A stretch of DNA of 38,187 bases from an uncultured Clostridia bacterium (GTDB lineage: Bacteria > Bacillota > Clostridia > Christensenellales > Borkfalkiaceae), in NCBI GenBank assembly GCA_947630605.1, contig CANRIO010000007.1, forward strand, positions 1 through 38,187, read 5' to 3'. How positions within the stretch are numbered: the first letter of the stretch is position 1; every line of letters starts with the position of its first letter. A program made the translations under genes and the position numbers. The notes beneath the pieces were generated by a model. It was given only the letters and a program-made list of their open reading frames with translations. It ran no database searches and had not been told where the DNA came from. Positions 14,457 through 26,244 of this stretch are shown piece after piece.

Positions 14457-16176
14457 GATTCTTTCCGATGAGCAAACCCCCGATGAGGGGCACGAGGGCG
14501 AGGGCGATGTAGACCGCTCCGCCGATGAGGGAGAAGTAGACGGCGTAGGAAAGGAGCAGAGCCGTGACCGTCTGCACGGCGGCATAGAGGATGGCACGGC
14601 CCTTGCCCACTTCCCGCGCGGTCGCCGCGATCGCGGAGACGCAGGGGCTGCAGGCGAGGATGAAGACGGCGAAGGCAAACGCGCTTGCCCCCGAATAGGG
14701 AAAACTTCCAAAGAGCATGGCGATCGCCCCCGCGACGTTCTCCTTTGCCACAAGGCCCGAGATGGCCGCATAGGCAATGCGCCAATCCCCCATGCCAATG
14801 GGCGCGAACAGCCATTTTAGCCCGCCGCAAATTGTGGCCAGCATGCTCTCCTTCGGGTTGCAAAGCTCGAATGAAAAGTTGAAGGAGGAGAGAAGCCATG
14901 AGAGGAGAAAGAAGGCGAGGATGACCGTCGCCACCTTTATTATAAACTGTTTTATCTGAAAGAGCAAGGATTTGAGGACGAAAAGCGGGCGCGGAAGCTG
15001 GAGCGGGGCGAGTTCGGAAAGGAAGGGCGGCGTACTCTTTTTGAGAAAGAGGGCGACGAGGACGGCGAGGGCGACGCCGAGAAGATACAGAAGGATGACG
15101 GCGACGAAGGGGTCGGAAAAGAAGGAGGCGGAAAGGGTGAGGTAGACGGGGAGCTTCGCGCTACAGGAAATGTAGGGAAGGCACAAAATCACCCGCTTTT
15201 GCATCGCCCTGTCGTCGAGGCCGCGGGTGGTCGTGACGGCAGCGGCAGTGCAGCCGAAGCCCATCAGAATGGAAAAGACCGCCCGTCCCGAGAGGCCGAT
15301 CTTCGAAAAAAAGCCGTCGGTGAGAATGGCGAGACGGGAGAGAAGTCCGCTCTCCTCCAAGAGGATCAAAAAAAGATGCAAAAGAGCGATCTGCGGGAGG
15401 AAGCAGAGGACGCTCCCGAGGCTTCGCAGGATGCCGTCACGCACGAGGCTTCGCACGATTTCGGAGGGGATACCCTCGGACATGCCCCCCAGCAAATCGG
15501 TGAAAAGCCATTCGATGCCCTCCTTCATCATGTCTCCGGGGAGACCCTTTGCGAAGGTGAGAAGGAAGGCGAGAAGGAGCAGAAGGCAGAAAAGGGGCAG
15601 GCCGATAAAGCCGTTCAAAAGTAATTTGTCGGCACGCGAGAGACCGCCGCGGGCGGGGCGAAAGGCGTGGGAGAGGTCCCCTTCTTTCACGCTTGCAGGC
15701 GGGGCGGAGAGCATGGCGGCAAGAAAGGTTTTGAGCGATTTCTCCTCGGCAAAGCAGACGGGAATGCCGAGGATGGCAGAGAGGCGGGCGGCATCCACCT
15801 CGCCCCCGTTGCGCACGAAAGCCCTCCTCTTTGTGAGGACGAGGGCACAGCGGCGGCTATTTTTCGTGAGAGCGGCCATGAGGGGAAGGAAATTAGTCAA
15901 TCTTCCGCACTCGGCGACAAAGAGCAGGGCGGCCCCTTCGTGCTCCTCTATGTACCTCGAGGCGAACTTCTCCTCGAGGCTCCTCCCGGGGGCGGAATAG
16001 ATTCCGGGAAGATCGACGAGGGTGACGCGCTTTCCCCCAATATCCGTCTCCTTTTCGAGAGCATCCACCGTGACGCCGTGATAGTTGCCCACATGCGCAT
16101 GTGCGCGCGCAAGGCGGTTAAAAAGGGTGCTCTTGCCCGCGTTGGGATTGCCGCAGAGGAGGATCATGTCCGCCAT
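14296..16176 (-). CDS. feoB: Ferrous iron transporter FeoB-like, with degenerate G4/G5
   Basis: A 626-residue membrane protein for Fe(II) uptake. Seen: G1 GNPNAGKST (9-17), G2 region VGNYHGVTV, G3 DLPGIYS (55-61), then from residue ~190 a polytopic core with the FeoB gate motifs GFGCTAAAVTTTRGL, LPYISCSAKLPVYL and SPCVSAIAATAREVG. The base-specificity motif expected as NMxD reads TKRR (115-118), and no SA[RK] G5 is evident at ~141-147. The start at 16176 overlaps feoA by 13 nt. The last ~53 codons (RFHRRNIRTGVDGPSHPLEA onwards) run inside the downstream rluA-type gene and do not look like FeoB, so the true end may once have been near 14460. Confidence 0.9.
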   Translation of the reverse strand: MADMILLCGNPNAGKSTLFNRLARAHAHVGNYHGVTVDALEKETDIGGKRVTLVDLPGIYSAPGRSLEEKFASRYIEEHEGAALLFVAECGRLTNFLPLMAALTKNSRRCALVLTKRRAFVRNGGEVDAARLSAILGIPVCFAEEKSLKTFLAAMLSAPPASVKEGDLSHAFRPARGGLSRADKLLLNGFIGLPLFCLLLLLAFLLTFAKGLPGDMMKEGIEWLFTDLLGGMSEGIPSEIVRSLVRDGILRSLGSVLCFLPQIALLHLFLILLEESGLLSRLAILTDGFFSKIGLSGRAVFSILMGFGCTAAAVTTTRGLDDRAMQKRVILCLPYISCSAKLPVYLTLSASFFSDPFVAVILLYLLGVALAVLVALFLKKSTPPFLSELAPLQLPRPLFVLKSLLFQIKQFIIKVATVILAFFLLSWLLSSFNFSFELCNPKESMLATICGGLKWLFAPIGMGDWRIAYAAISGLVAKENVAGAIAMLFGSFPYSGASAFAFAVFILACSPCVSAIAATAREVGKGRAILYAAVQTVTALLLSYAVYFSLIGGAVYIALALVPLIGGLLIGKNREKVSRTGKKFAQRFHRRNIRTGVDGPSHPLEAQGCARQRQKGGRKCSPSSGR

Positions 16177-16394
16177 ACAAACACTCTCTTTGCGACGTCT
16201 TTTCCCACTGCCAAACGGCTCCCTGGAGCTTCTATGAGGCACCCATGTCCGAGGAGGAACCTCTTGAGAAGGGTGATTTTTGCCCCGGGGAAGATGCCCA
16301 GCGCGTGAAGGCGGTCGCGCGTTTCATCGTCCCCGTCGATTTTCAGGACGACGGCGCGGTCGCCCTTTTTGAGATCGGAGATGTCCATATCCAT
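16164..16394 (-). CDS. feoA: FeoA-like iron transport accessory protein
   Basis: A 76-residue SH3-like protein: ISDLKKGDRAVVLKIDGDDE, then RLHALGIFPGAKITLLKRF and a C-terminal VGKDVAKRVFV, the usual FeoA pattern. It is thought to act on FeoB at the cytoplasmic side. It overlaps feoB by 13 nt. The ATG at 16394 has no ribosome site and follows directly after a terminator-like hairpin with a six-T run. A start at 16439 would add 15 residues encoded by the hairpin itself (AGPRIFCVGSAFF), which looks artificial. Confidence 0.85.
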   Translation of the reverse strand: MDMDISDLKKGDRAVVLKIDGDDETRDRLHALGIFPGAKITLLKRFLLGHGCLIEAPGSRLAVGKDVAKRVFVWRT

Positions 16395-16436
16395 AAAAAA
16401 TGCGGACCCGACGCAAAATATGCGCGGACCCGCATT
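16395..16436 (-). terminator. Terminator-like hairpin between the DUF378 gene and feoA
   Basis: On the minus strand, AATGCGG and CCGCATT form the outer stem around an inner GCGCA/TGCG pairing, followed by six T that touch the feoA ATG. A direct repeat CGGGTCCGC occurs in both halves. It may end the DUF378 transcript or attenuate feo expression. Confidence 0.65.
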
Positions 16437-16453
16437 CACATTCGGAAAGTTGC

Positions 16454-16693
16454 TTACTTCGTCTCGCGGACAGTGCGATTGCCGCGGAGCTTCAACGCCC
16501 CGTTCGTGATGATGGGCGAGATGATGAGCCAGATCGCGGCGAGGGCGATGAGCGAGTAGATGATGATGGAACCGACCGCACGCGGGCCCATGAAGATCGC
16601 CGAGACGAGGTTGAAGTTGAAGATGCCGAACATTCCCCAGTTGAGCGCCCCGAGGAGCACGAGGATGTAGGCAATGAGATTTGCAATGACCAT
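16454..16693 (-). CDS. DUF378-family small membrane protein
   Basis: A 79-residue protein with two membrane spans and the DUF378 signature: LVLLGALNWGMFGIFNFNLV near the N-terminus and YSLIALAAIWLIISPIITNG in the second span. Its function is not known. It has a strong ribosome site (AGGAGG) eight bases before the ATG. It lies 59 nt upstream of feoA, from which it is separated by a terminator-like hairpin, so a functional link to iron uptake is doubtful. Confidence 0.88.
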   Translation of the reverse strand: MVIANLIAYILVLLGALNWGMFGIFNFNLVSAIFMGPRAVGSIIIYSLIALAAIWLIISPIITNGALKLRGNRTVRETK

Positions 16694-16770
16694 TTTGTTC
16701 CTCCTGCTCTTATCTTGCGCTACTCGGAAATGTTTATACGGAATGCGGTGAGAAATTTTGGGAACGCGTA

Positions 16771-16804
16771 CCCACCCCCTACCCCCTCCTCGGGAGGGGG
16801 CAAG
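16771..16804 (+). repeat. Repeat module C, copy 1
   Basis: CCACCCCCTACCCCCTC followed by the complementary GAGGGGG and CAAG. The second copy is at 30311-30347. A CCCCCTC/GAGGGGG hairpin can form. The intergenic stretch 16694-17138 holds only repeat modules and the terminator at 17071. Confidence 0.8.
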
Positions 16805-16809
16805 AATAA

Positions 16810-16840
16810 GGTGATGCTTCGACTACGCTCAGCATGACGA
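16810..16840 (+). repeat. Repeat module A, short form, copy 1
   Basis: Carries ATGCT...CTCAGCATGACG with a 12-base interval; arms ATGCT/AGCAT. Confidence 0.8.
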
Positions 16841-16886
16841 TATTTAGAACAGTTTGCTGTTTATCAATGTCACTGTTTTCATCCTC

Positions 16887-16956
16887 GGGATGCTTCGAGG
16901 AGGGGCTCTCATGGACATGGTATAGCCGTCTCGGCTCAGCATGACGCGGTACCCCA
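16887..16956 (+). repeat. Repeat module A, long form, copy 2
   Basis: GGGATGCTTCGA, a variable ~34-base insert, then GGCTCAGCATGACGCGG and a terminal ACCCCA. Confidence 0.75.
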
Positions 16957-16966
16957 TTGGGAGCTC

Positions 16967-17020
16967 AACCCTCATCAGTCACGCGAAGCGTGACAGCTTC
17001 CCCCATGGATGGGGGAAGCC
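16967..17020 (+). repeat. Repeat module B (double hairpin), copy 1
   Basis: Hairpin 1 GTCACGC (16978-16984)/GCGTGAC (16988-16994), one A, hairpin 2 GCTTCCCCC (16996-17004)/GGGGGAAGC (17011-17019). Both stems are perfect. Confidence 0.9.
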
Positions 17021-17028
17021 TTTGCTGC

Positions 17029-17059
17029 GGTGATGCTTCGACTTCGCTCAGCATGACGA
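17029..17059 (+). repeat. Repeat module A, short form, copy 3
   Basis: Nearly identical to copy 1: GATGCTTCGACTTCGCTCAG and CATGACGA. Confidence 0.8.
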
Positions 17060-17064
17060 ATAAT

Positions 17065-17101
17065 AGGAAAGGCCCGAGCGGCGGTGCCGCTCGGGCCTTC
17101 T
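17065..17101. terminator. Terminator of the giant lipoprotein gene
   Basis: A perfect 12-bp stem, GGCCCGAGCGGC (17071-17082) with its complement (17086-17097). On the minus strand it is followed by TTTCCTATT. It lies about 40 nt after the lipoprotein stop. Confidence 0.85.
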
Positions 17102-17138
17102 TGTACCTTGTGTTTGCTTCAAAGGCTTTTATGCCTTA

Positions 17139-20100
17139 TCAGCCTTGTGCGCCTGCAGCATCGCCACCGACATCGGCTTCACCGGTGCCGGGCACGGGTG
17201 CGGGCTCTGCCTCCTGCTTTGTGACGGTAACGGTGATCGTATACCCTTGATCGGTTTGACCAAGTGTAAACTCAACAATATAGGTATCTCCGTCCGACGT
17301 CACCGTCCAAGTGCCATCGTCATTGGGCGTATAGGTTGCATTCGGTAATTCGGGAGCAGTTGAGCCTTCGACTTTACCCACTTGGAAAATATAAGGAATG
17401 TCGAGTTGCGCCTGTCCGTCATCGCCTGCATACAGAGAGTAGAAGTATAGTACTGCATATTGCCTTGTAGAATCCATGACATAATTGGACATATGGCCCT
17501 GTGCAAGACCGAAGACATAGTCGTTCTCTGAGGCATCCCAAGAAATAAGAACAAGGAACGTTCCCAAAGTCGAATCCACGACCCAAACGCCGTCTTCGTA
17601 CATTGTGATGACCGCATCGGGATCAAACACTGCTTCCCCTTGACTTACGATCCCGAAGCCGTAGAGCGAAACAACATCGTGCGCGTCTCCTTCTTCAGAC
17701 TCATTAACAAGGTAGCCGAGAGCCAATCCGTTGCCAAATCCAACAACGTGTTGATCCGTATACTCTGAAACCGTAATACTGATCCCATATTCCTGTGACG
17801 TTGCTACAAGTTCAAATGTTACAACGTATTTTTCTTTGGATCCCGTCTCGACAGACCAGATCCCATTCCCGATTTCTTCGATCGCTGTGATGTCGAAGAG
17901 AGATACATCACTGCCATTATATGTCCCCATACCCAAGATGCAAGGAACTTCCAGTTCGGCTCCACTTTGTCCTGTAAGGATAACATATAAGAAATTGACA
18001 TAGTAGCTTCGTGAATTGTCCAGATACCCAAGCCTATATAGAGGCTCATTCGTAAAGCCGGTGATGGCGCCCGTCGTCTCATCCTCGGTGAGAATGATCC
18101 ACCAGATTTCCCAATCGTTAAGATCATCCTCTGTTGTCGTATCATAAATCGCCCAAACGATCGTCCCATCGTCCAAGAATTCGGCATGCGCAGGTTCAAG
18201 GTAGGTCGGATCGGATCCATCATCCGGTACGGAGAATAAACCTGCAGACATCACAGTCCCCTCAGGAATTTCAAATGCGTCACCGAAGATGGAAGTTTGA
18301 ATGCTAAGCCCAAGCGTCGATATGCCATCCGCACTATTTCTATCCGAAGATTGTGCCTCAAAGAACTGATAAAGGTTGACGGTATAGACAAGCAAATAAG
18401 GAGTTCCCTGGCCTTCTTCCCAAGGGTCAAAATTTGCAGTGACAAGGAAGAACTCAACGCAATACTCGTTATCGTCCGTGGAATCAAGCCAAATGCTATA
18501 TCTGGAACCATAGTAAATGTTCGTTCCAACCGGCGATTTGAGCGCCTCATCGTATTCTTCTCTCGTTAATATGACTTGGAGATATTCGTCGTTTGTATCA
18601 ACCGCATCCGTGATGATCATAACCATCTCCCCGGTACCCAAAACATCGCCGATGCCGAAATAACCGAAATCGATTTCACTGTAACCAGCGACATCCTCGA
18701 TCACATCGTCGTAGAGGAAGTATCCTTGGATCGTGAGAGCATTATTCTCCTCGTTATCGGGATCCCATTTGAGTTCCTTAATGGCGTAGTCGCCGTAGTG
18801 GGAGTCGTAGATCGTGAGCACAAACTCCTCGGTGCCATCGCGATTTTCGAGTACCTCGACATAGATATCGAAGCCGCCGACCGTGCTCTCCTGTCCCTCG
18901 GCATCCTGATAGGTGATGGTCGCAGACGCATTGAGTTCGGGCGATCCGTCGGGGATGAAGGTGAGAGTGATGTCAAGAGGATCGACGTAACCAAAGAAAT
19001 CTACCTGACCGCTGATCGAGATCTCCTCGCCCTCAGTCCAACGATAATACTTCTTTTCGTTCCAAGTATAAGTTTTTTCTCCCGCCTTGGGAAGAGAAAG
19101 CGTTGCGTGGGAGAAGACCCCCGTATCTTCATCGCGCACATAGACGGTCGCTGTCTCTTCGCCTTCCTCTACAACATAGTAGCCATACAGCTCGCCGTCG
19201 ATCATCACATAGCTTTCGCCGAATACGATCGAACTTGTGAAGGTGTCGGAGTAGAAGGTAGCGGCATATTTGGAATTGTCGACGCGGTGGAAGCTCTTTG
19301 CCGCGACGTCGTAGGAGATAAGATATCTGAAGGCACCGTTGATTTCGCTGATGATCAGATAGTCCTCGTTCACGATCGTCATGACGATCTTGTTATAGAT
19401 GCCCATCTCGTCGATGTAGTAGCCATCGCCGAAGCCGTCGATATTGAGGACGGAATAGCGGGGGCCGATATAGCTGCCCTCCATGACTTCGTCGGAAAGA
19501 ACGCAATATACGCCATAGCTCCCCTCATCGTCGAGTTTAACGTTCCAAGTAACTTTCGTCTCCTCCGTCTCGCCAAGCTGAAGGGTGACATCGTAGATCA
19601 TGTGCAACTCATCGACGACGACCCATTTGCCCGTCGCTTTGACTTCACCCTGATCGTCCTTGAGCTCGACAGTGCCGTCTGCGTTAAAGACGATGATGTG
19701 TCCTTCGTATCCTTCGACGGGTTGATAACTCGAATCGACGATACTGTAAGAATCGGCAAATTCCACAGGCTCCTCATAGAGGGCGATGGTATCGCCATCC
19801 ACCGTGAAGCGGAATTCATTCATCTTATCATCATAGAAGCGGATCTTGCCGTCCTGTTCAAGATTGTAATATCCGCCATAGGTCACACCGTTTTCATCGG
19901 TGTATTCCGCCCAGAATGCAAAGCCGTCGAGGAGAAGCTCGGAGCCGTCTGCACCCGTATAGATGCCGTTATGGTCACTATCATAGAGATAATAACTTGC
20001 ATAGTAGCAGATGAAGTCGAATGCAGCCACATCTTGCGTCCCCTCTGCGGGCGTGAAGGTGTAGATCACATCGCCGAATTCGGTCTCATCTTTCTCTGCA

Positions 20101-22691
20101 TAAGTGCCGTTCACCGCCACGCCATTCTTGGTGTAGACGGCGGAACCGTTCCCGTTAAGGAAGAGCGTTTCCACATAGCTCTGCACGCCCAAACTGTTCT
20201 TATAGTAGTAGGTGTGAGGTGCATCCTGCGCGACAACGTAGGTATAGGTTTCGTTGCCTTCGGTATCCGTCGTCTTCGTGACGATGAAGTAGATGTGCAT
20301 CGGATCTCCCGTTTCGGGATCGTATGTATAGAGATCCAAATACATGAGATCGGCATCTTCATCGAATCCGGTAATGTTGCCTCCGTAAGCGGTGCCGTCC
20401 GAATCGACATACAAGCTACCGATGTTTCTCATGCCGAGATCGCCGTACCAAATATATCCGCCCTCACCTTCCTCGGCACCTGCCTCGGAAACTTCGATGC
20501 AAGCAAGCTCGTCTTCCACCTCGAAGTAATAGTAGACATCAAGACCTACATTCGCCGTAAGGAAGCCAAGTTTTGTAAAGATAGCATTCCCAGTATACTC
20601 TGCGTCCTTTTCCGTCTCAACATAGGTATAGTAGAGAAGCTCTCCGCCGATCTCTTTCACGGTGTAGTAGCCGCTCGCCGCATGCTTGATTTCACGCGAT
20701 TGCCCACTCACGACAACGGAATAGATCTCCGCACGTTTTGCGCCTTCGGGGATGTTGGAATCTGCGTTCTCTGCATCCTCATAGGGCTCGTCGTAGAGAA
20801 GCATGGCAGGATAGTAAAGGTTGGGGTCGCCATATTCGTCAATGTCAAGCATGAGGTATTCCGTAAAGTTACCATACACATTGACCGAGAGAGATTCTCC
20901 GTCTTCGTCTATCGTGTAACTATAGAGAAGATTGTTCTTTTCATCATAAATATCGATGATCGTAATGCCAAGCACATCGATCTCACGGGCCCAATAGTAG
21001 CACTCTGTCTCTTTTTCACCGACAGTAATGGTGCCGCCGAGAAGAGCGGAGAACCCGGAGAGATTGATCGTAGCTTCTTCCCCGTCCACGGTGGCGGTAT
21101 AATCTCCAGCGTAGTCGTCTTGCACGACAAAAACGACCTCACCGCTCGTGAGAGGAACTGTCATGACCATAGTACGGCCAAAGTTCCCGCCGAGATCGAC
21201 TTCGATGAGGTAGAGCCTTTGCGGGCTGCCTTCGTTACCATATATATTATCGATTCTGTATTTGCCCGTAAGATATGTAAGGGAGGAGCCGTAAACGGTG
21301 TATTCCGCATTACCGATGCCGTCAAAATAAAGATAAACGTCTTCGTCAATAGAGAAGTAGCCTTCTACACTTATGAACAAGCCTTCGTGATACTCGCCAT
21401 ATACGTTATCGATGAGGGAGAAGGTCTCCTGCCCGTCGACTGTCTGAAGTTTGAAACGATAGACATACTCTTCCGTTTCAAGCACATACACGCCGCGTTC
21501 TTCGTCGGGATAGTAGACGCCCTTTTCCTCTACGTTCTTGGTTTCGTCTTTTTCGTCTTTATGGGTATAGGTCGCGTTGGTGGTCCCATCGAGCACAAGG
21601 GTCGAAGAAGCGTCGATGGAAGTGGTATTGCCGAGATAAGCACTGTAGCGATGATAGGTGCCTGCGACAGCCTTGCGATCATAACTGAAATATCTGCCGA
21701 TGATCTTGCCTTCAAGCGGTTCGCCTTCGTCTGGCTCAAACGTAAACGCGTCGCCGTCGCGAACGCCTTCGAATTCCATTCCGCCGCGGACAAGATGGGC
21801 GACAGTGTCATCTTCTCCCGAGAAGTAGATGACGTCTTCGCCGCCGTAGAGGTCGGTATAGCCGATATCCCAAACGGCATAGAGTACGATCAGCCCATTG
21901 ACTGTGATCTCATCGCCCACATCATAGATGATTTCGCCGTCATCGTTTGCCCAGCCAACAAGGCGGCGGACATCGGAGAGATCGAATGCTTCCTCGCCGA
22001 GGGCCGCGATCGTGTCGCCATAAGGGAGGTACTCTGCTACACGCTGTTCTTCGTCGTCGCCTTCGATGTTTGCGTAGAATAACACGCTGTAGTGATTTCT
22101 CGAAAGGTAGACATTGAAGGCGTAATTCGCCTGAAGTGCGTCGACCGAGAGGGTGCTTTCGGTTTCATCCAAAGCGAAGCCTTCGGGGATAGTGACGGCA
22201 GAAGTGACGTCGACGGGATCGAGATAGAAGGCCGAGGCCGAAAGGGTTTTGTCTGCCACATCGGGATAGCTCTCGTCGATGGCCTGCATGTAGATGTTGA
22301 TCGTATAGCCGGCGTTGTATTTTGCCGTAAGTTCGACGCCATCCTTGGACATGGTGGCCCCGTCCGCGATGGGAGAGCCGTTCAGATACCAGCCTGCGAA
22401 GGTGAGACCCGCTGCGGGCGTGGGAGCCTTATCCGCAAGGAATTCCTTGAGGTTTGCGCCCACTTCGACATTGTATTCTGTCGTGGAAAGTGTGCCGCCG
22501 CTCCCGACGTCGAGGGTCAATTCGGCCTCGACTTTTTGGCTGCCGCCGCCACCGCCGCTGCCGCTGCCGCCGCCGGTATCAGTGGAATCATTGCCCTTGG
22601 CCTTTCCGCAGCCCGCAACGATGCCGCACGTGGCCGCAACGACCATTGCGACGATCATGCCGCCGAGCCACAATTTGCGCGTTTTTTTCAT
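17139..22691 (-). CDS. Giant acidic surface lipoprotein (1,850 residues)
   Basis: The N-terminus is a lipoprotein signal: basic MKKTRK, a hydrophobic stretch, then lipobox VAGC with C28, followed by a Gly/Ser linker (residues ~40-51). Two InlB/Flg_new-like repeats follow (LTFAGWYLNG... and VRRLVGWANDDG...LYAVW). The rest is an array of beta-rich units rich in Asp, Glu and Tyr. One recurring pattern is LxLDGxGxAxYTxxGxxxxGxY (for example around LYFDGIGNAEYTVYG and LFLNGNGSAVYTKNG). The C-terminal part contains a clear duplication of ~83 residues (17229-17474 and 17769-18020). There is no membrane anchor at the C-terminus, so it is held by lipid at the outer face. I recognise no enzyme motif; adhesion or matrix roles are only possible. 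Ribosome site AAAGGAGG is perfect. Expression is likely controlled by the G9 promoter at 22777-22805. Confidence 0.9.
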   Translation of the reverse strand: MKKTRKLWLGGMIVAMVVAATCGIVAGCGKAKGNDSTDTGGGSGSGGGGGSQKVEAELTLDVGSGGTLSTTEYNVEVGANLKEFLADKAPTPAAGLTFAGWYLNGSPIADGATMSKDGVELTAKYNAGYTINIYMQAIDESYPDVADKTLSASAFYLDPVDVTSAVTIPEGFALDETESTLSVDALQANYAFNVYLSRNHYSVLFYANIEGDDEEQRVAEYLPYGDTIAALGEEAFDLSDVRRLVGWANDDGEIIYDVGDEITVNGLIVLYAVWDIGYTDLYGGEDVIYFSGEDDTVAHLVRGGMEFEGVRDGDAFTFEPDEGEPLEGKIIGRYFSYDRKAVAGTYHRYSAYLGNTTSIDASSTLVLDGTTNATYTHKDEKDETKNVEEKGVYYPDEERGVYVLETEEYVYRFKLQTVDGQETFSLIDNVYGEYHEGLFISVEGYFSIDEDVYLYFDGIGNAEYTVYGSSLTYLTGKYRIDNIYGNEGSPQRLYLIEVDLGGNFGRTMVMTVPLTSGEVVFVVQDDYAGDYTATVDGEEATINLSGFSALLGGTITVGEKETECYYWAREIDVLGITIIDIYDEKNNLLYSYTIDEDGESLSVNVYGNFTEYLMLDIDEYGDPNLYYPAMLLYDEPYEDAENADSNIPEGAKRAEIYSVVVSGQSREIKHAASGYYTVKEIGGELLYYTYVETEKDAEYTGNAIFTKLGFLTANVGLDVYYYFEVEDELACIEVSEAGAEEGEGGYIWYGDLGMRNIGSLYVDSDGTAYGGNITGFDEDADLMYLDLYTYDPETGDPMHIYFIVTKTTDTEGNETYTYVVAQDAPHTYYYKNSLGVQSYVETLFLNGNGSAVYTKNGVAVNGTYAEKDETEFGDVIYTFTPAEGTQDVAAFDFICYYASYYLYDSDHNGIYTGADGSELLLDGFAFWAEYTDENGVTYGGYYNLEQDGKIRFYDDKMNEFRFTVDGDTIALYEEPVEFADSYSIVDSSYQPVEGYEGHIIVFNADGTVELKDDQGEVKATGKWVVVDELHMIYDVTLQLGETEETKVTWNVKLDDEGSYGVYCVLSDEVMEGSYIGPRYSVLNIDGFGDGYYIDEMGIYNKIVMTIVNEDYLIISEINGAFRYLISYDVAAKSFHRVDNSKYAATFYSDTFTSSIVFGESYVMIDGELYGYYVVEEGEETATVYVRDEDTGVFSHATLSLPKAGEKTYTWNEKKYYRWTEGEEISISGQVDFFGYVDPLDITLTFIPDGSPELNASATITYQDAEGQESTVGGFDIYVEVLENRDGTEEFVLTIYDSHYGDYAIKELKWDPDNEENNALTIQGYFLYDDVIEDVAGYSEIDFGYFGIGDVLGTGEMVMIITDAVDTNDEYLQVILTREEYDEALKSPVGTNIYYGSRYSIWLDSTDDNEYCVEFFLVTANFDPWEEGQGTPYLLVYTVNLYQFFEAQSSDRNSADGISTLGLSIQTSIFGDAFEIPEGTVMSAGLFSVPDDGSDPTYLEPAHAEFLDDGTIVWAIYDTTTEDDLNDWEIWWIILTEDETTGAITGFTNEPLYRLGYLDNSRSYYVNFLYVILTGQSGAELEVPCILGMGTYNGSDVSLFDITAIEEIGNGIWSVETGSKEKYVVTFELVATSQEYGISITVSEYTDQHVVGFGNGLALGYLVNESEEGDAHDVVSLYGFGIVSQGEAVFDPDAVITMYEDGVWVVDSTLGTFLVLISWDASENDYVFGLAQGHMSNYVMDSTRQYAVLYFYSLYAGDDGQAQLDIPYIFQVGKVEGSTAPELPNATYTPNDDGTWTVTSDGDTYIVEFTLGQTDQGYTITVTVTKQEAEPAPVPGTGEADVGGDAAGAQG
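17229..17474 (-). repeat. Internal protein duplication, unit 2 of the lipoprotein
   Basis: Begins DSTRQYAVLYFYSLYAG and ends DQGYTITV. It aligns with unit 1 at 17769-18020 across conserved blocks: (N/S)xR, IPYI or VPCI, WTV or WSV, YIVEF or YVVTF, and YTITV or ISITV. Confidence 0.65.
17769..18020 (-). repeat. Internal protein duplication, unit 1 of the lipoprotein
   Basis: Begins DNSRSYYVNFLYVILTG and ends QEYGISITV; it is the partner of 17229-17474. The DNA of the two units has diverged clearly, so the duplication is old. Confidence 0.65.
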
Positions 22692-22776
22692 AGTTGCCTC
22701 CTTTTAACATTTTATATTATGCGCATAAAAATGCTGAAACTACACTTTTATACGATAATATAAATAAATATATCTT

Positions 22777-22805
22777 ATAATAGCACCCCCCCCCTTGGAT
22801 GTCAA
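22777..22805 (-). promoter_or_regulatory. Lipoprotein promoter with a nine-G tract in the spacer
   Basis: Minus strand: -35 TTGACA (22800-22805), 17-bp spacer, -10 TATTAT (22777-22782). The spacer is TCCAA, nine G, then TGC. An A-rich stretch lies upstream of the -35. The expected start is near 22770, giving a leader of about 80 nt that contains the palindrome TTATGCGCATAA (22717-22728) and the ribosome site. Loss or gain of one G changes the spacer to 16 or 18 bp. Confidence 0.8.
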
Positions 22806-22872
22806 CTTTTTTGAGGGTATTTCAGGAAAAAAATGAAAATTATTTTCAATTGTATTGTGTGGGGTCTCCGGC

Positions 22873-22899
22873 GCCGCGCCGCCCATCGGGCGGCGCGGC
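22873..22899. repeat. Perfect 12-bp GC-only inverted repeat
   Basis: GCCGCGCCGCCC, loop ATC, and the exact complement. The right arm runs directly into the 27-bp tandem repeats. Confidence 0.85.
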
Positions 22900-22966
22900 G
22901 GCGAGATGAGGACGTAAACACGCGGCGGCGAGATGAGGACGTAAACACGCGGCGGCGAGATGAGGA
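22895..22966 (+). repeat. 27-bp tandem repeat, 2.7 copies
   Basis: Two identical 27-base units (22895-22921 and 22922-22948) begin GCGGCGGCGAGATGAGGA; the third copy keeps 18 bases (22949-22966). There are no spacers between copies. Confidence 0.92.
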
Positions 22967-22998
22967 AGGGAGGGGTGCGGGGGACACCATTGGAAGCA

Positions 22999-23053
22999 CA
23001 ACCCTCATTCGTCACGCAGGGCGTGACACCTTCCCCCATGGATGGGGGAAGGC
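22999..23053 (+). repeat. Repeat module B (double hairpin), copy 2
   Basis: Hairpin 1 GTCACGC (23011-23017)/GCGTGAC (23021-23027); hairpin 2 CCTTCCCCC (23029-23037)/GGGGGAAGG (23044-23052). Both ends of stem 2 differ from the other copies in a compensating way. Six T follow after a C, so this copy can act as a + strand terminator. Confidence 0.9.
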
Positions 23054-23059
23054 TTTTTT

Positions 23060-23134
23060 GGACTTCGTATGGGGGGATGCTTCGGAGAGGAGCTCACATG
23101 GACTGCGTATAGGCAAATCGGCTCAGCATGACGC
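23060..23134 (+). repeat. Repeat module A, long form, copy 4
   Basis: Starts GGACTTCGTATGGGGGGATG, contains a ~35-base insert and ends CGGCTCAGCATGACGCC. Arms ATGCT/AGCAT. Confidence 0.8.
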
Positions 23135-23135
23135 C

Positions 23136-23187
23136 AACCCTCATCAGTCCGTAAACGGACAGCTTCCCCCTTTGGAAGGGGGAAGCC
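23136..23187 (+). repeat. Repeat module B (double hairpin), copy 3
   Basis: Hairpin 1 here is GTCCGT (23147-23152)/ACGGAC (23155-23160), different in sequence from copies 1, 2 and 4 but still perfectly paired. Hairpin 2 is GCTTCCCCC (23162-23170)/GGGGGAAGC (23178-23186), followed by nine T, a full terminator on the + strand. Confidence 0.9.
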
Positions 23188-23198
23188 TTTTTTTTTCG

Positions 23199-23282
23199 GA
23201 CTGCGTAGGAGGGGATCCTTCGAGGATGAGCGCGCCGTGGACTGCGTAATTGCAATTCGGCTCAGGATGACGCGGGCTACCC
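23199..23282 (+). repeat. Repeat module A, long form, copy 5 (variant arms)
   Basis: Arms are ATCCT...AGGAT instead of ATGCT...AGCAT, so both arms changed together. It ends GATGACGCGGGCTACCCA. The rest of 22692-23394 holds the lipoprotein promoter and the terminator at 23330. Confidence 0.8.
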
Positions 23283-23329
23283 ATTCGCGCATGAACTTTT
23301 CTCTCAATACAACGCAGAACATAAAGGGA

Positions 23330-23361
23330 AACGGCACCGCGAGGCGGTGCCGTTCCTTTAA
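23330..23361 (-). terminator. Terminator of the 949-residue protein gene
   Basis: A perfect 11-bp stem, AACGGCACCGC (23330-23340) with its complement (23344-23354), about 40 nt after the stop at 23395. Its T tail (TTTCCCTTT on the minus strand) is interrupted. Confidence 0.75.
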
Positions 23362-23394
23362 GGAAATATCAGGAGATCTTCTGTATGCGATATT

Positions 23395-26244
23395 TTACTT
23401 CTTCTTGGGTTTGTCCGTTCTCTTCTTGACTCCCTTGAGCTCGCTGAGGTCGACCTCGGAGAGGTTCTTCTCGTTGGGTTTGATGACGAGGAGAAGGATG
23501 ATCGCGATGAGGAGGACGGCGGAGACGGCGAAGAGGATGATCGCGGTCGTGTTGTTCTTGATCCAGTTGCTCGAACCGTAGAGGACGTCCGCTTCGTTCG
23601 TGATCTCGATGACCTTGTAGGCATGCGCGTTCAGCCCCGGATAGGTGCCGTCGGTGACGGCGATCTCGACGACGTAGTAGCCCACTGCCTGCGGTGTGAA
23701 GCTCAGGGAGGATTCGGGATCCCAAGCATAGTCGTTATCCGTGTCATCCCACCTGTCGTCCTTCTCGGTGACGGTGTCGTCGTATTCGCGGATGGCCGCG
23801 AGGCGGGAACCGAGCTCGCCGTTTAGATCGATCTCATCCTTGATCTCGTCAAAGAGTTTCACGAGCTCCTCGTAGCTGTAGGCCTTCTGCCCGCTGGCAA
23901 GGTCTGTATTCTTAAAGGTATAGAGCTTGTACTCCGTCTCGTACCCCTCGAGGGCGACGATGTCGAAACTCGAGATGGAATAGCTCTGCTTGTTGTAGCC
24001 GATGGACTGTTTGCCCGCTTCCTCGATCGTGGGACCGGTGTAGCCGATGTCGAACTCGAATTGGGGGATGCCCTCGATCTCGAAGACGTTGGAGGAGGTC
24101 AGGGTGACGAGATCGCCGTCCTCGTCATAATACTTCATCGCGTTGCCGTCGCCGTCCTGTGCGATGACACGGAAGACGTAGTGGCCCACTTTATCCACCT
24201 CGAAGCGGAGGTTGTTGTAGCGGAGCGAGGTCGCGGAGGAGGGAGAATCGCCGTCCTCGGCGCCCGGTTTGAAGTAGTAGATGCTGAAGCGGAGGTTGCG
24301 GTAGTCGGCGTACTCGCTCCCGATGATGTTCTGAAGGGAGGGAAGATAAAAGTATGCCCCGTCGCCTGCGCTGAGATCTTCGGCGGCATTATCGACCTCA
24401 TTCTGATAGTCGTTGAGTGCGTTCTTCCCATCCTTGTCCCAATCGGGAGTGTTTACACCCTTGGAGGAGCCCGGATGATCGAGGTCTGCCACCTCTTCGG
24501 TCTTGACGCCCAAATACTTCGGGCCGATGGGACCCTTGACCGCTTCGTCAATGCGGTTGACGATGATATAGTCGAAGTAGTTGTTGTGTTCTTCTACTTT
24601 CTCATACTCGGAGACTTTTTTGGTGCAGGGCGTTGTCGTCTTGTCGTCGCCCTCCCCCGTGGTGACGGTGCCCGTGCAGGTGGCATCCTGCGAGAGCTTC
24701 TCGTGATCGGCGACGGAATAGGCGTAGCCATCTTCCTTATGGTTGGAGCAGTTCGGATCGGAGCAGTTGTAGCCCACGAGCTTCGTATAGTTGTCATCTC
24801 CCATCGGTTTGACGACTTCTGCGTCGAGGTCGGCGTACCAGGTGAGGTAGACGTAGGTATCGTTGGCGTCGTTGTAGTCGTGCAATTTGAAGCGGATGGA
24901 GACGTAGGCGACTTCGTCCTCATCGTCCGTGGGCAAGAAGTAGGTGCTCGTCGTGCTGAGGGTGGAATAGTCGCTGTCTGTGGGCTTCACATAGTGCTTG
25001 TTGCCCTCTGCGGGGGTCTCCCCTTCGGTCTCCCCTTCAACGGGATCGGCCTCCTTTTTCAGCATGTAATATTGACGGGTCACAGTGACAGATTCGTCGC
25101 AGACGTCGATCGCCTCATAGGAGAGGGAGAAGCGTTTGCCGAGACGGAAGGAGTAGATCTTCTCGTTGATGACGAGCACGGCGGGCGCATTGTCCTCGAT
25201 GCGGGGGCCCGTGTGATTGGTTTCATCGGAAAATCCGGCCATGAAGCTCTGACCGTTGAGGTCCTTCATGAAAAGGAACTGCCTGACATCGTCGCAATCT
25301 CTGTATTTTTCATCGAGCGCGGAAGCATCGAATCCGGGCATGGTGGCCTCGAACGTCATCGGGAACTGCGGCGTCGAGGAGGAGGTGGAGCGGTACTCCA
25401 TGAAGTAGCCGCCGATGTTGGTGAAGGTGCCGATTTCCTCTCTTTCCCCTGTCCCTTGGGTGAGAAAAACGGTGAAGTCGCCGGGATTCTCTTCGACTTC
25501 TTCGAGTTCGAATTTGAGGTCGGCGGAGAGATCCCCGATGATCGTGGCGGCGTCGGGGTCGTCCACGTCCTCATCCTTGTCGAATTCGGAATTGCGGACG
25601 AACACTTTGAGCTGCTTTTCTGCGCCCTCTTCGGCGTCCTCGGGGAGTTTATACTCGAAGTGGAGGGCGTTGGTCGTCTGGCCTTCCTTGGTGACGTTTT
25701 CCTCCGCGCTCTGGAAGGTGATGTCGAATTCGTCGAACTGCACCGGGGAGGCGAGATCGAGACCGCAAATGGTGCAGACGTTGACGCCTTCGGTGAGATC
25801 ATTCTCCCCTTCCGCTTCGCCATAGCCGCAACGGGGGCAGATCTTGTAGACGTTCTCGCCCGCTGTCCTCGTTTCGTAGGAGACGGGGGCGAAGGAGAAT
25901 TGCATCGTGAAGTGATCGGACTTCCCGGGGTTCATCAAAGTCCCGTCATATTCCGTCTTCTCGCCTGCGGACACGAACCACTTGAGGGCGAGGTCGCGGC
26001 GATAGCGGACGCTGCTGCCCGTCTTGAGGGCGAACTGCACATAGGAAGCATTCCCGTCAAATTCGGAGAAATCCACCTCCGCGCCGTCGATATCGTCGAA
26101 GATGTCGGTCGGGTCGCTGATCGTCGTCGATGCGGCATGGGCGGTGCGGCCTCCGGGAAGGGCTGCAAGCGCAAAGCCGAGCGTAAAGACGCAGAGAATG
26201 GCCAGCGCAAGAATGGTGATCCAACGAAGTTTTGCCTTACTCAT
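23395..26244 (-). CDS. Secreted, C-terminally membrane-anchored protein with CxxC pairs (949 residues)
   Basis: Signal peptide: SKAKLRW, hydrophobic core ITILALAILCVFTLGFALAA, likely cut after AHA at residue ~37. The long extracytoplasmic region is acidic and beta-rich. A C-terminal span (TTAIILFAVSAVLLIAIILL, about residues 895-915) is followed by a Lys-rich tail ending KKRTDKPKKK, so the protein is anchored with its bulk outside. Two cysteine groups are unusual for this location: CPRC (136-139) and CTIC (157-160), spaced like a zinc ribbon, and a second group around YNCSDPNCSNH with two further Cys downstream. There is no sortase motif and no recognised enzyme domain. It is expressed from its own promoter (26305-26333) with ribosome site GGAG. 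It may belong with the neighbouring lipoprotein as a surface module, but nothing proves this. Confidence 0.88.
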   Translation of the reverse strand: MSKAKLRWITILALAILCVFTLGFALAALPGGRTAHAASTTISDPTDIFDDIDGAEVDFSEFDGNASYVQFALKTGSSVRYRRDLALKWFVSAGEKTEYDGTLMNPGKSDHFTMQFSFAPVSYETRTAGENVYKICPRCGYGEAEGENDLTEGVNVCTICGLDLASPVQFDEFDITFQSAEENVTKEGQTTNALHFEYKLPEDAEEGAEKQLKVFVRNSEFDKDEDVDDPDAATIIGDLSADLKFELEEVEENPGDFTVFLTQGTGEREEIGTFTNIGGYFMEYRSTSSSTPQFPMTFEATMPGFDASALDEKYRDCDDVRQFLFMKDLNGQSFMAGFSDETNHTGPRIEDNAPAVLVINEKIYSFRLGKRFSLSYEAIDVCDESVTVTRQYYMLKKEADPVEGETEGETPAEGNKHYVKPTDSDYSTLSTTSTYFLPTDDEDEVAYVSIRFKLHDYNDANDTYVYLTWYADLDAEVVKPMGDDNYTKLVGYNCSDPNCSNHKEDGYAYSVADHEKLSQDATCTGTVTTGEGDDKTTTPCTKKVSEYEKVEEHNNYFDYIIVNRIDEAVKGPIGPKYLGVKTEEVADLDHPGSSKGVNTPDWDKDGKNALNDYQNEVDNAAEDLSAGDGAYFYLPSLQNIIGSEYADYRNLRFSIYYFKPGAEDGDSPSSATSLRYNNLRFEVDKVGHYVFRVIAQDGDGNAMKYYDEDGDLVTLTSSNVFEIEGIPQFEFDIGYTGPTIEEAGKQSIGYNKQSYSISSFDIVALEGYETEYKLYTFKNTDLASGQKAYSYEELVKLFDEIKDEIDLNGELGSRLAAIREYDDTVTEKDDRWDDTDNDYAWDPESSLSFTPQAVGYYVVEIAVTDGTYPGLNAHAYKVIEITNEADVLYGSSNWIKNNTTAIILFAVSAVLLIAIILLLVIKPNEKNLSEVDLSELKGVKKRTDKPKKK

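Follow-up and report, generated by a model that had tools for sequence, protein, structure and literature searches.

A nine-G promoter spacer ahead of a giant clostridial lipoprotein gene, one of a recurrent class of poly-G promoters and a candidate slippage switch

The window, that is, the whole stretch of DNA analyzed (38,187 nucleotides), is contig C7 of a genome assembled in 82 contigs (1.34 Mb, 74% complete). Its minus strand carries a gene for a 1,850-residue lipoprotein, for which no Pfam match above the cut-off was found. Matches to this protein were present in 69 of 103 genomes of the genus, its own included and often several per genome; the best one in another genome showed 51% identity. 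Ten other open reading frames (ORFs) of the window were scanned as well. Eight belonged to Pfam families, among them gyrase/topoisomerase subunits A and B, an Na/Pi cotransporter, FeoB, and a P-type ATPase, and two had no Pfam family, one of them being the next gene upstream (23395-26244). The lipoprotein and its promoter comprise the following features:

22800..22805, minus strand: -35 hexamer TTGACA (sequence reading and promoter consensus scan)
22795-22799, minus strand: spacer flank TCCAA, next to the -35
22786..22794, minus strand: G9 homopolymer within the promoter spacer (C9 on the plus strand)
22783-22785, minus strand: flank TGC, next to the -10
22783..22799, minus strand: whole spacer TCCAA-G9-TGC, 17 bp, including the TGN of an extended -10
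22777..22782, minus strand: -10 hexamer TATTAT (sequence reading and consensus scan)
22718..22727, minus strand: palindrome TATGCGCATA in the 5' leader, common to four of four homologous leaders aligned
22697..22702, minus strand: ribosome-binding site AGGAGG, 5 nt before the ATG (22691)
17139..22691, minus strand: gene of the 1,850-residue lipoprotein (signal peptide with lipobox VAGC, by eye)
17068..17100, minus strand: terminator-like hairpin of 15 pairs, 3' of the lipoprotein gene (consensus scan only)

From 22805 to 22777, the minus strand reads TTGACA-TCCAA-GGGGGGGGG-TGC-TATTAT, and a homopolymer thus lies between recognizable -35 and -10 elements. The original prediction of TTGACA, a spacer of exactly 17 bp, and TATTAT was borne out, as were the ORF of 1,850 codons and its ribosome site. 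The TGC forms an extended -10 (TGN), a feature absent from that prediction, which may soften the dependence of this promoter on spacing. The -10 lies 85 nt from the ATG, and a transcript start near 22770 would be expected; the hairpin at the 3' end suggests a single-gene transcript. In a consensus scan of positions 16000-24000, the G9 promoter ranked top of 10 promoter-like sites, with 11 of 12 matches. Since shuffled sequence gave 7.5 such sites on average, promoter-likeness alone is weak evidence. A lone run of eight or more G is likewise ordinary for the window, as two overlapping matches were found, both within the G9 run, and 2.27 were expected. Its combination with the promoter hexamers, on the other hand, is unusual, as the pattern counts below show.

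Gut bacteria are also known to switch surface genes at random by means of invertible promoters such as that of Akkermansia cps1 (PMC13343947, as excerpted). That type operates by inversion between inverted repeats, whereas a search of 22450-23350 for inverted pairs of at least 12 nt detected none flanking the window promoter; both pairs found were local hairpins upstream of it. Within this search range, an invertible promoter was therefore rejected. Upstream of the promoter, at 22894-22974 and 23099-23273, we observed repeats of two kinds. One consists of three tandem 27-nt copies (CGCGGCGGCGAGATGAGGACGTAAACA; third copy 78%); the other is a 36-nt unit, beginning with TGGACTGCGTA, that is present twice. 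By eye, GGACTGCGTA was seen to recur near another G run of the same genome.

Promoters of this architecture were found repeatedly. In the genome of the window, the pattern TTGAN..G6+..TANNNT gave 18 raw matches versus 6 for the reversed pattern. Across the genus, TTGACN{1,12}G7N{0,12}TANNNT matched 368 times (raw count) in 57 of 61 genomes, with up to 29 per genome, and the reversed control gave 3 in the same genomes; these raw numbers can count one promoter more than once, by alternative -10 ends. Order-wide, 130 of 396 genomes contained a match, and reversed matches numbered 8 in all. Judged by eye, match counts were high in the window's genus and in the families labeled f19, f28, and f32, and were zero in every genome searched of f16 and f31. 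The window's own genome holds 20 G/C runs of at least 8 (grouped from 37 overlapping matches), 11 of which are at least 9 long. Four of these 11 (those of the window promoter, C19, C28, and C59) consist of G and lie within a spacer of exactly 17 bp between TTGACA and TATAAT or TATTAT. A fifth spacer run is a C9 at 15 bp on contig C29, and C46 has a shorter G7 run at 15 bp ahead of a lipoprotein gene.

The runs strongly favor G on the coding strand. The corresponding C-tract pattern gave 25 raw matches in 19 of the 61 genomes, compared to 368 for G (reversed controls, 12 and 3, respectively), whereas in ordinary spacers G is barely above C (26.7% vs 20.5%, 133 promoters). Slippage alone does not predict this preference. 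It would suit an alternative in which the run is a stable element of a fixed G-rich promoter, serving DNA geometry or a bound regulator, with the spacing selected gene by gene. On the evidence below, we regard this alternative as unlikely. A few C-run promoters were seen in the same place in G019, G015, G021, G042, and other genomes; G019 has two similar ones, and a C7 form recurs unchanged in five genomes. Thus, the C orientation is possible, though rare.

In one scan of genome contigs, the narrow form TTGACATN7G9TATAAT was detected at five loci, in records titled Verrucomicrobia, Treponema, Opitutales, Clostridia, and Saccharibacteria. A phage origin of the promoter class was considered and rejected: TTGACAN{0,10}G8N{0,10}TATAAT occurred in 8 stretches of the viral contigs, a scan that may omit records close to the window's own genome.

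For quantitative comparison, we used a set of 134 G-tract promoters with at least 7 G, taken from the genus matches listed and from some genus members of the order-wide search. One recurrent match resembling coding sequence in three genomes was left out, and several fetched sites failed the hexamer filter, so that the 134 represent only some of the promoters that underlie the raw counts. Their tract lengths were read from assembled, partly incomplete genomes. The no-tract set, drawn from the window together with 1.46 Mb of retrieved genus DNA, comprised promoters with TTGACA, at least five of six -10 matches, and no G or C run above 4.

The genes behind the two sets differed clearly. The first downstream ORF encoded a lipobox signal peptide at 74 of the 134 G-tract promoters and at 12 of 130 no-tract promoters (p 3e-16). 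The latter were restricted to 16-18 bp spacing and runs up to 4. Paralogues were kept in this count, and sites without an ORF (4 and 7, respectively) were scored as misses; ORFs were chosen by a simple script using start codon, ribosome site, and length, not by a gene caller. With one promoter per distinct N-terminus, the first gene encoded a lipoprotein in 66 of 120. By eye, the N-termini of further targets resemble ABC transporter subunits and large secreted proteins. Surface exposure of the window lipoprotein is predicted from its lipobox signal peptide and from this bias of the class.

Spacing also set the two sets apart. Without a tract, 101 of 149 promoters had a 17-bp spacer and 130 of 149 one of 16-18 bp. 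With a tract, only 18 of 134 were at 17 bp (Fisher p about 2e-21), 62 within 1 bp of it, and 116 within 2 bp. The most common tract length was 9 (78/134), and the distance of the run to either hexamer ranged from 0 to 11 bp, a placement ill-suited to the regulator site that a fixed promoter might require. Many tracts sit in spacers of 15 or 19 bp, distances predicted to weaken a sigma-70 promoter. This would be expected if the runs were neutral relics that grow in promoters of little importance, with spacing drifting and unused as a switch, and the 20 runs of 9 found outside the promoter set point the same way, although some of them are visibly promoters lost to the strict filter. We consider a neutral origin very unlikely, given the strong lipoprotein bias and hexamers that remain near consensus (TTGACA in 122/134, TATAAT in 81/134), even if the filter itself favors such hexamers.

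A natural series of run lengths among promoters ending ATAAT may indicate the length at which the spacer turns unstable. Of the exact G5 spacers among the matches listed, 102 of 145 were at 17 bp (after removal of 4 nested ends and of one row containing a G10 run). The proportion was 20 of 40 for exact G6 (40 of 41 rows; the omitted row holds a G9 run), 2 of 6 for G7, and 9 of 75 for pure runs of G8 or more, which spread over 13-21 bp. In contrast, when the run was interrupted (G4-H-G4), 18 of 22 spacers were at 17 bp and 22 of 22 at 16-18 bp. This control excludes rows not ending ATAAT, nested ends, and rows with a longer pure run, and it shares some rows with the G5 and G6 lists. Against pure G8+, Fisher tests gave p values of about 3e-17 (G5) and 1e-9 (interrupted runs). 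By the interrupted-run control, we rejected G-richness of the spacer as a general reason for odd spacing. Since interrupted runs stay near 17 bp, it is the unbroken run, not G-richness, that frees the spacing, as slippage predicts, and this counts against a fixed promoter. Judged from these sequences, loose spacing in the class is confined to G runs that are both unbroken and long (about 7-8 or more).

Homologous promoters, grouped by their flanks, gave a similar picture. Spacing varied in 9 of the 13 G-tract groups and in none of the 22 no-tract groups (p 1e-5), which argues further against fixed spacing. Tract length also differed in seven of the nine variable groups. In the remaining two, only the flanks differed, showing that not all spacing change is slippage and leaving the fixed promoter a point in its favor. 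In the clearest pair, G001 C36 and G056 C35, 444 of 450 bases outside the tract match, and the tracts differ by one G (16 vs 17 bp). In G031, two paralogous promoters with the same spacer flanks carry G8 and G9, and the copies in G009 carry G8 (six), G7, and once G23. Still, 31 of 57 homologous pairs differed in neither spacing nor tract. Unchanged examples include five copies of G9 in G030, the six G8 copies in G009, and a G7 with 19 bp common to three species; the last again suits a fixed promoter. The G23 promoter of G009 (contig C15, L240), which belongs to a lipoprotein family, has a 23-bp spacer made of the run alone, directly joining TTGACA and TACAAT and far beyond the usual 7-11. Downstream of it, the script chose a short ORF of 61 residues.

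Homopolymer lengths are difficult to determine, and some of the matches are near contig ends; tract lengths could in principle be consensus errors of the assemblies. This we hold to be exceedingly improbable. The promoter pattern is independent of exact length, two genome records give the same G9 and the same G10, and errors would not tie spacing to run interruption or gene class.

At the window locus itself, the state is conserved. The orthologue in the nearest relative, G478, has TTCAA-G9-TGC at 17 bp and encodes a protein 51% identical. The C59 promoter of the window's genome (AACA-G10-TGC, 17 bp) serves a paralogue of the lipoprotein (40% identity); compared to the window promoter, it has one more G and one flank base fewer, with spacing unchanged at 17 bp. 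An identical G10 is found at this paralogue in G478. The homologous group of the window promoter comprises four copies, with G9 or G10 and 17 bp in all. Between G000 and G478, DNA from upstream of the promoter through the signal peptide is 97% identical, in contrast to the protein at 51%, again contrary to neutral drift. Two long neighboring stretches are 86-93% identical, and the aligning parts of the rest of the gene 67-74%. We note that the leader and signal peptide of the giant lipoprotein (17139-22691; L252) are almost constant between the two species, while the whole protein is 51% identical.

Four orthologous promoters of G000 and G478 with a run of at least 9 in at least one of the two genomes were compared. 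Spacing was kept in all four: 17/17 (G9, G9), 17/17 (G10, G10), 17/17 (G9 vs G6+AAC), and 18/18 (G6 vs G9). In the last two, the run was altered by substitution and the distance was nevertheless held, which looks like selection for spacing, not free switching. We read this pair as probable selection for a 17-18-bp state. Such a conserved state fits a switch that favors the on position and also fits a promoter without switching. As the G478 orthologue also has G9 and 17 bp, a fixed 17-bp promoter remains compatible with the data at the window locus.

Weighing the architecture, the recurrence, the lipoprotein link, the loose spacing with pure long runs, and the differences between homologues, we consider it probable that the G9 tract is a slippage-prone spacer of a sigma-70-type promoter, which retunes transcription of the lipoprotein gene and is one of many such promoters. 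Replication slippage would add or remove G in the tract, the distance between -35 and -10 would change, and lipoprotein transcription would go up or down, with G9 (17 bp) as the predicted high state. One G more or less would then be expected to weaken the promoter. Many such promoters appear to exist in the genus and in several families of the order, mostly ahead of lipoprotein genes. If they slip independently, cells of one population would differ in their surface proteins, and the population would vary at the window locus as well. With regard to the original prediction of a porA-like switch, the class shows spacing that is loose with pure long runs and differs among homologues; the four copies at the window locus are all at 17 bp. 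Such a switch is the best reading and is partly supported, by comparative evidence stronger than a single sequence could give.

A broader proposal, to which we give about an even chance, is a lineage-wide stochastic surface coat, in which one promoter design, with a pure spacer tract of about nine G, precedes many lipoprotein and other envelope genes per genome in several families of the order and each promoter slips independently. Every population would then be a mosaic of coats. For the window locus, this proposal would have a leader and signal peptide that stay near constant and an outer protein part that diversifies.

Slippage at promoter spacers has precedents. In Neisseria meningitidis, the poly-G tract of porA lies between -35 and -10, and shortening of the optimal 17 nt abolishes transcription (PMC7864442, as excerpted). 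The likeness is a poly-G run in the spacer of a surface-protein promoter; porA, however, is a single gene, whereas in the present class one genome may carry many such promoters, most of them ahead of lipoprotein genes, as read from sequence. The same source describes a poly-G between -35 and -10 of tp0126 in Treponema pallidum, with an optimum of 17 nt, and tprL tracts of 7-11 G within isolates, 9 being most common, as in our set. In contrast to the present class, the excerpt names a handful of genes for T. pallidum. In the gut commensal Bifidobacterium breve, a pilus switch operates by replication slippage at a G tract (PMC9187656, as excerpted). The tracts studied there lie within coding sequence, a difference from the window promoter, and the excerpt mentions promoter-spacer G tracts without details, as outside the scope of that paper. 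Among the open-licence PMC matches listed, represented by title and start of abstract, no such promoter class in gut-type bacteria was found. Given porA and tp0126, we therefore regard the mechanism as known, and its scale and setting as apparently new. So far, spacer slippage has been described for single genes of few pathogens. Here, it appears to characterize a whole class of promoters, recurring in a little-known bacterial group and linked to lipoproteins. If this is borne out, surface genes that vary from cell to cell could be predicted across many genomes from one sequence pattern.

A G tract of another kind was observed on contig C6 of the same genome. A G10 run (C6:34725-34734) lies in frame within an open frame of 521 residues, stop to stop (L011:749-2311, minus strand). 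This frame matches N6_N4_Mtase, and the run is located just before the motif DPPYNVDYTG, making the frame a candidate phase-variable DNA methyltransferase.
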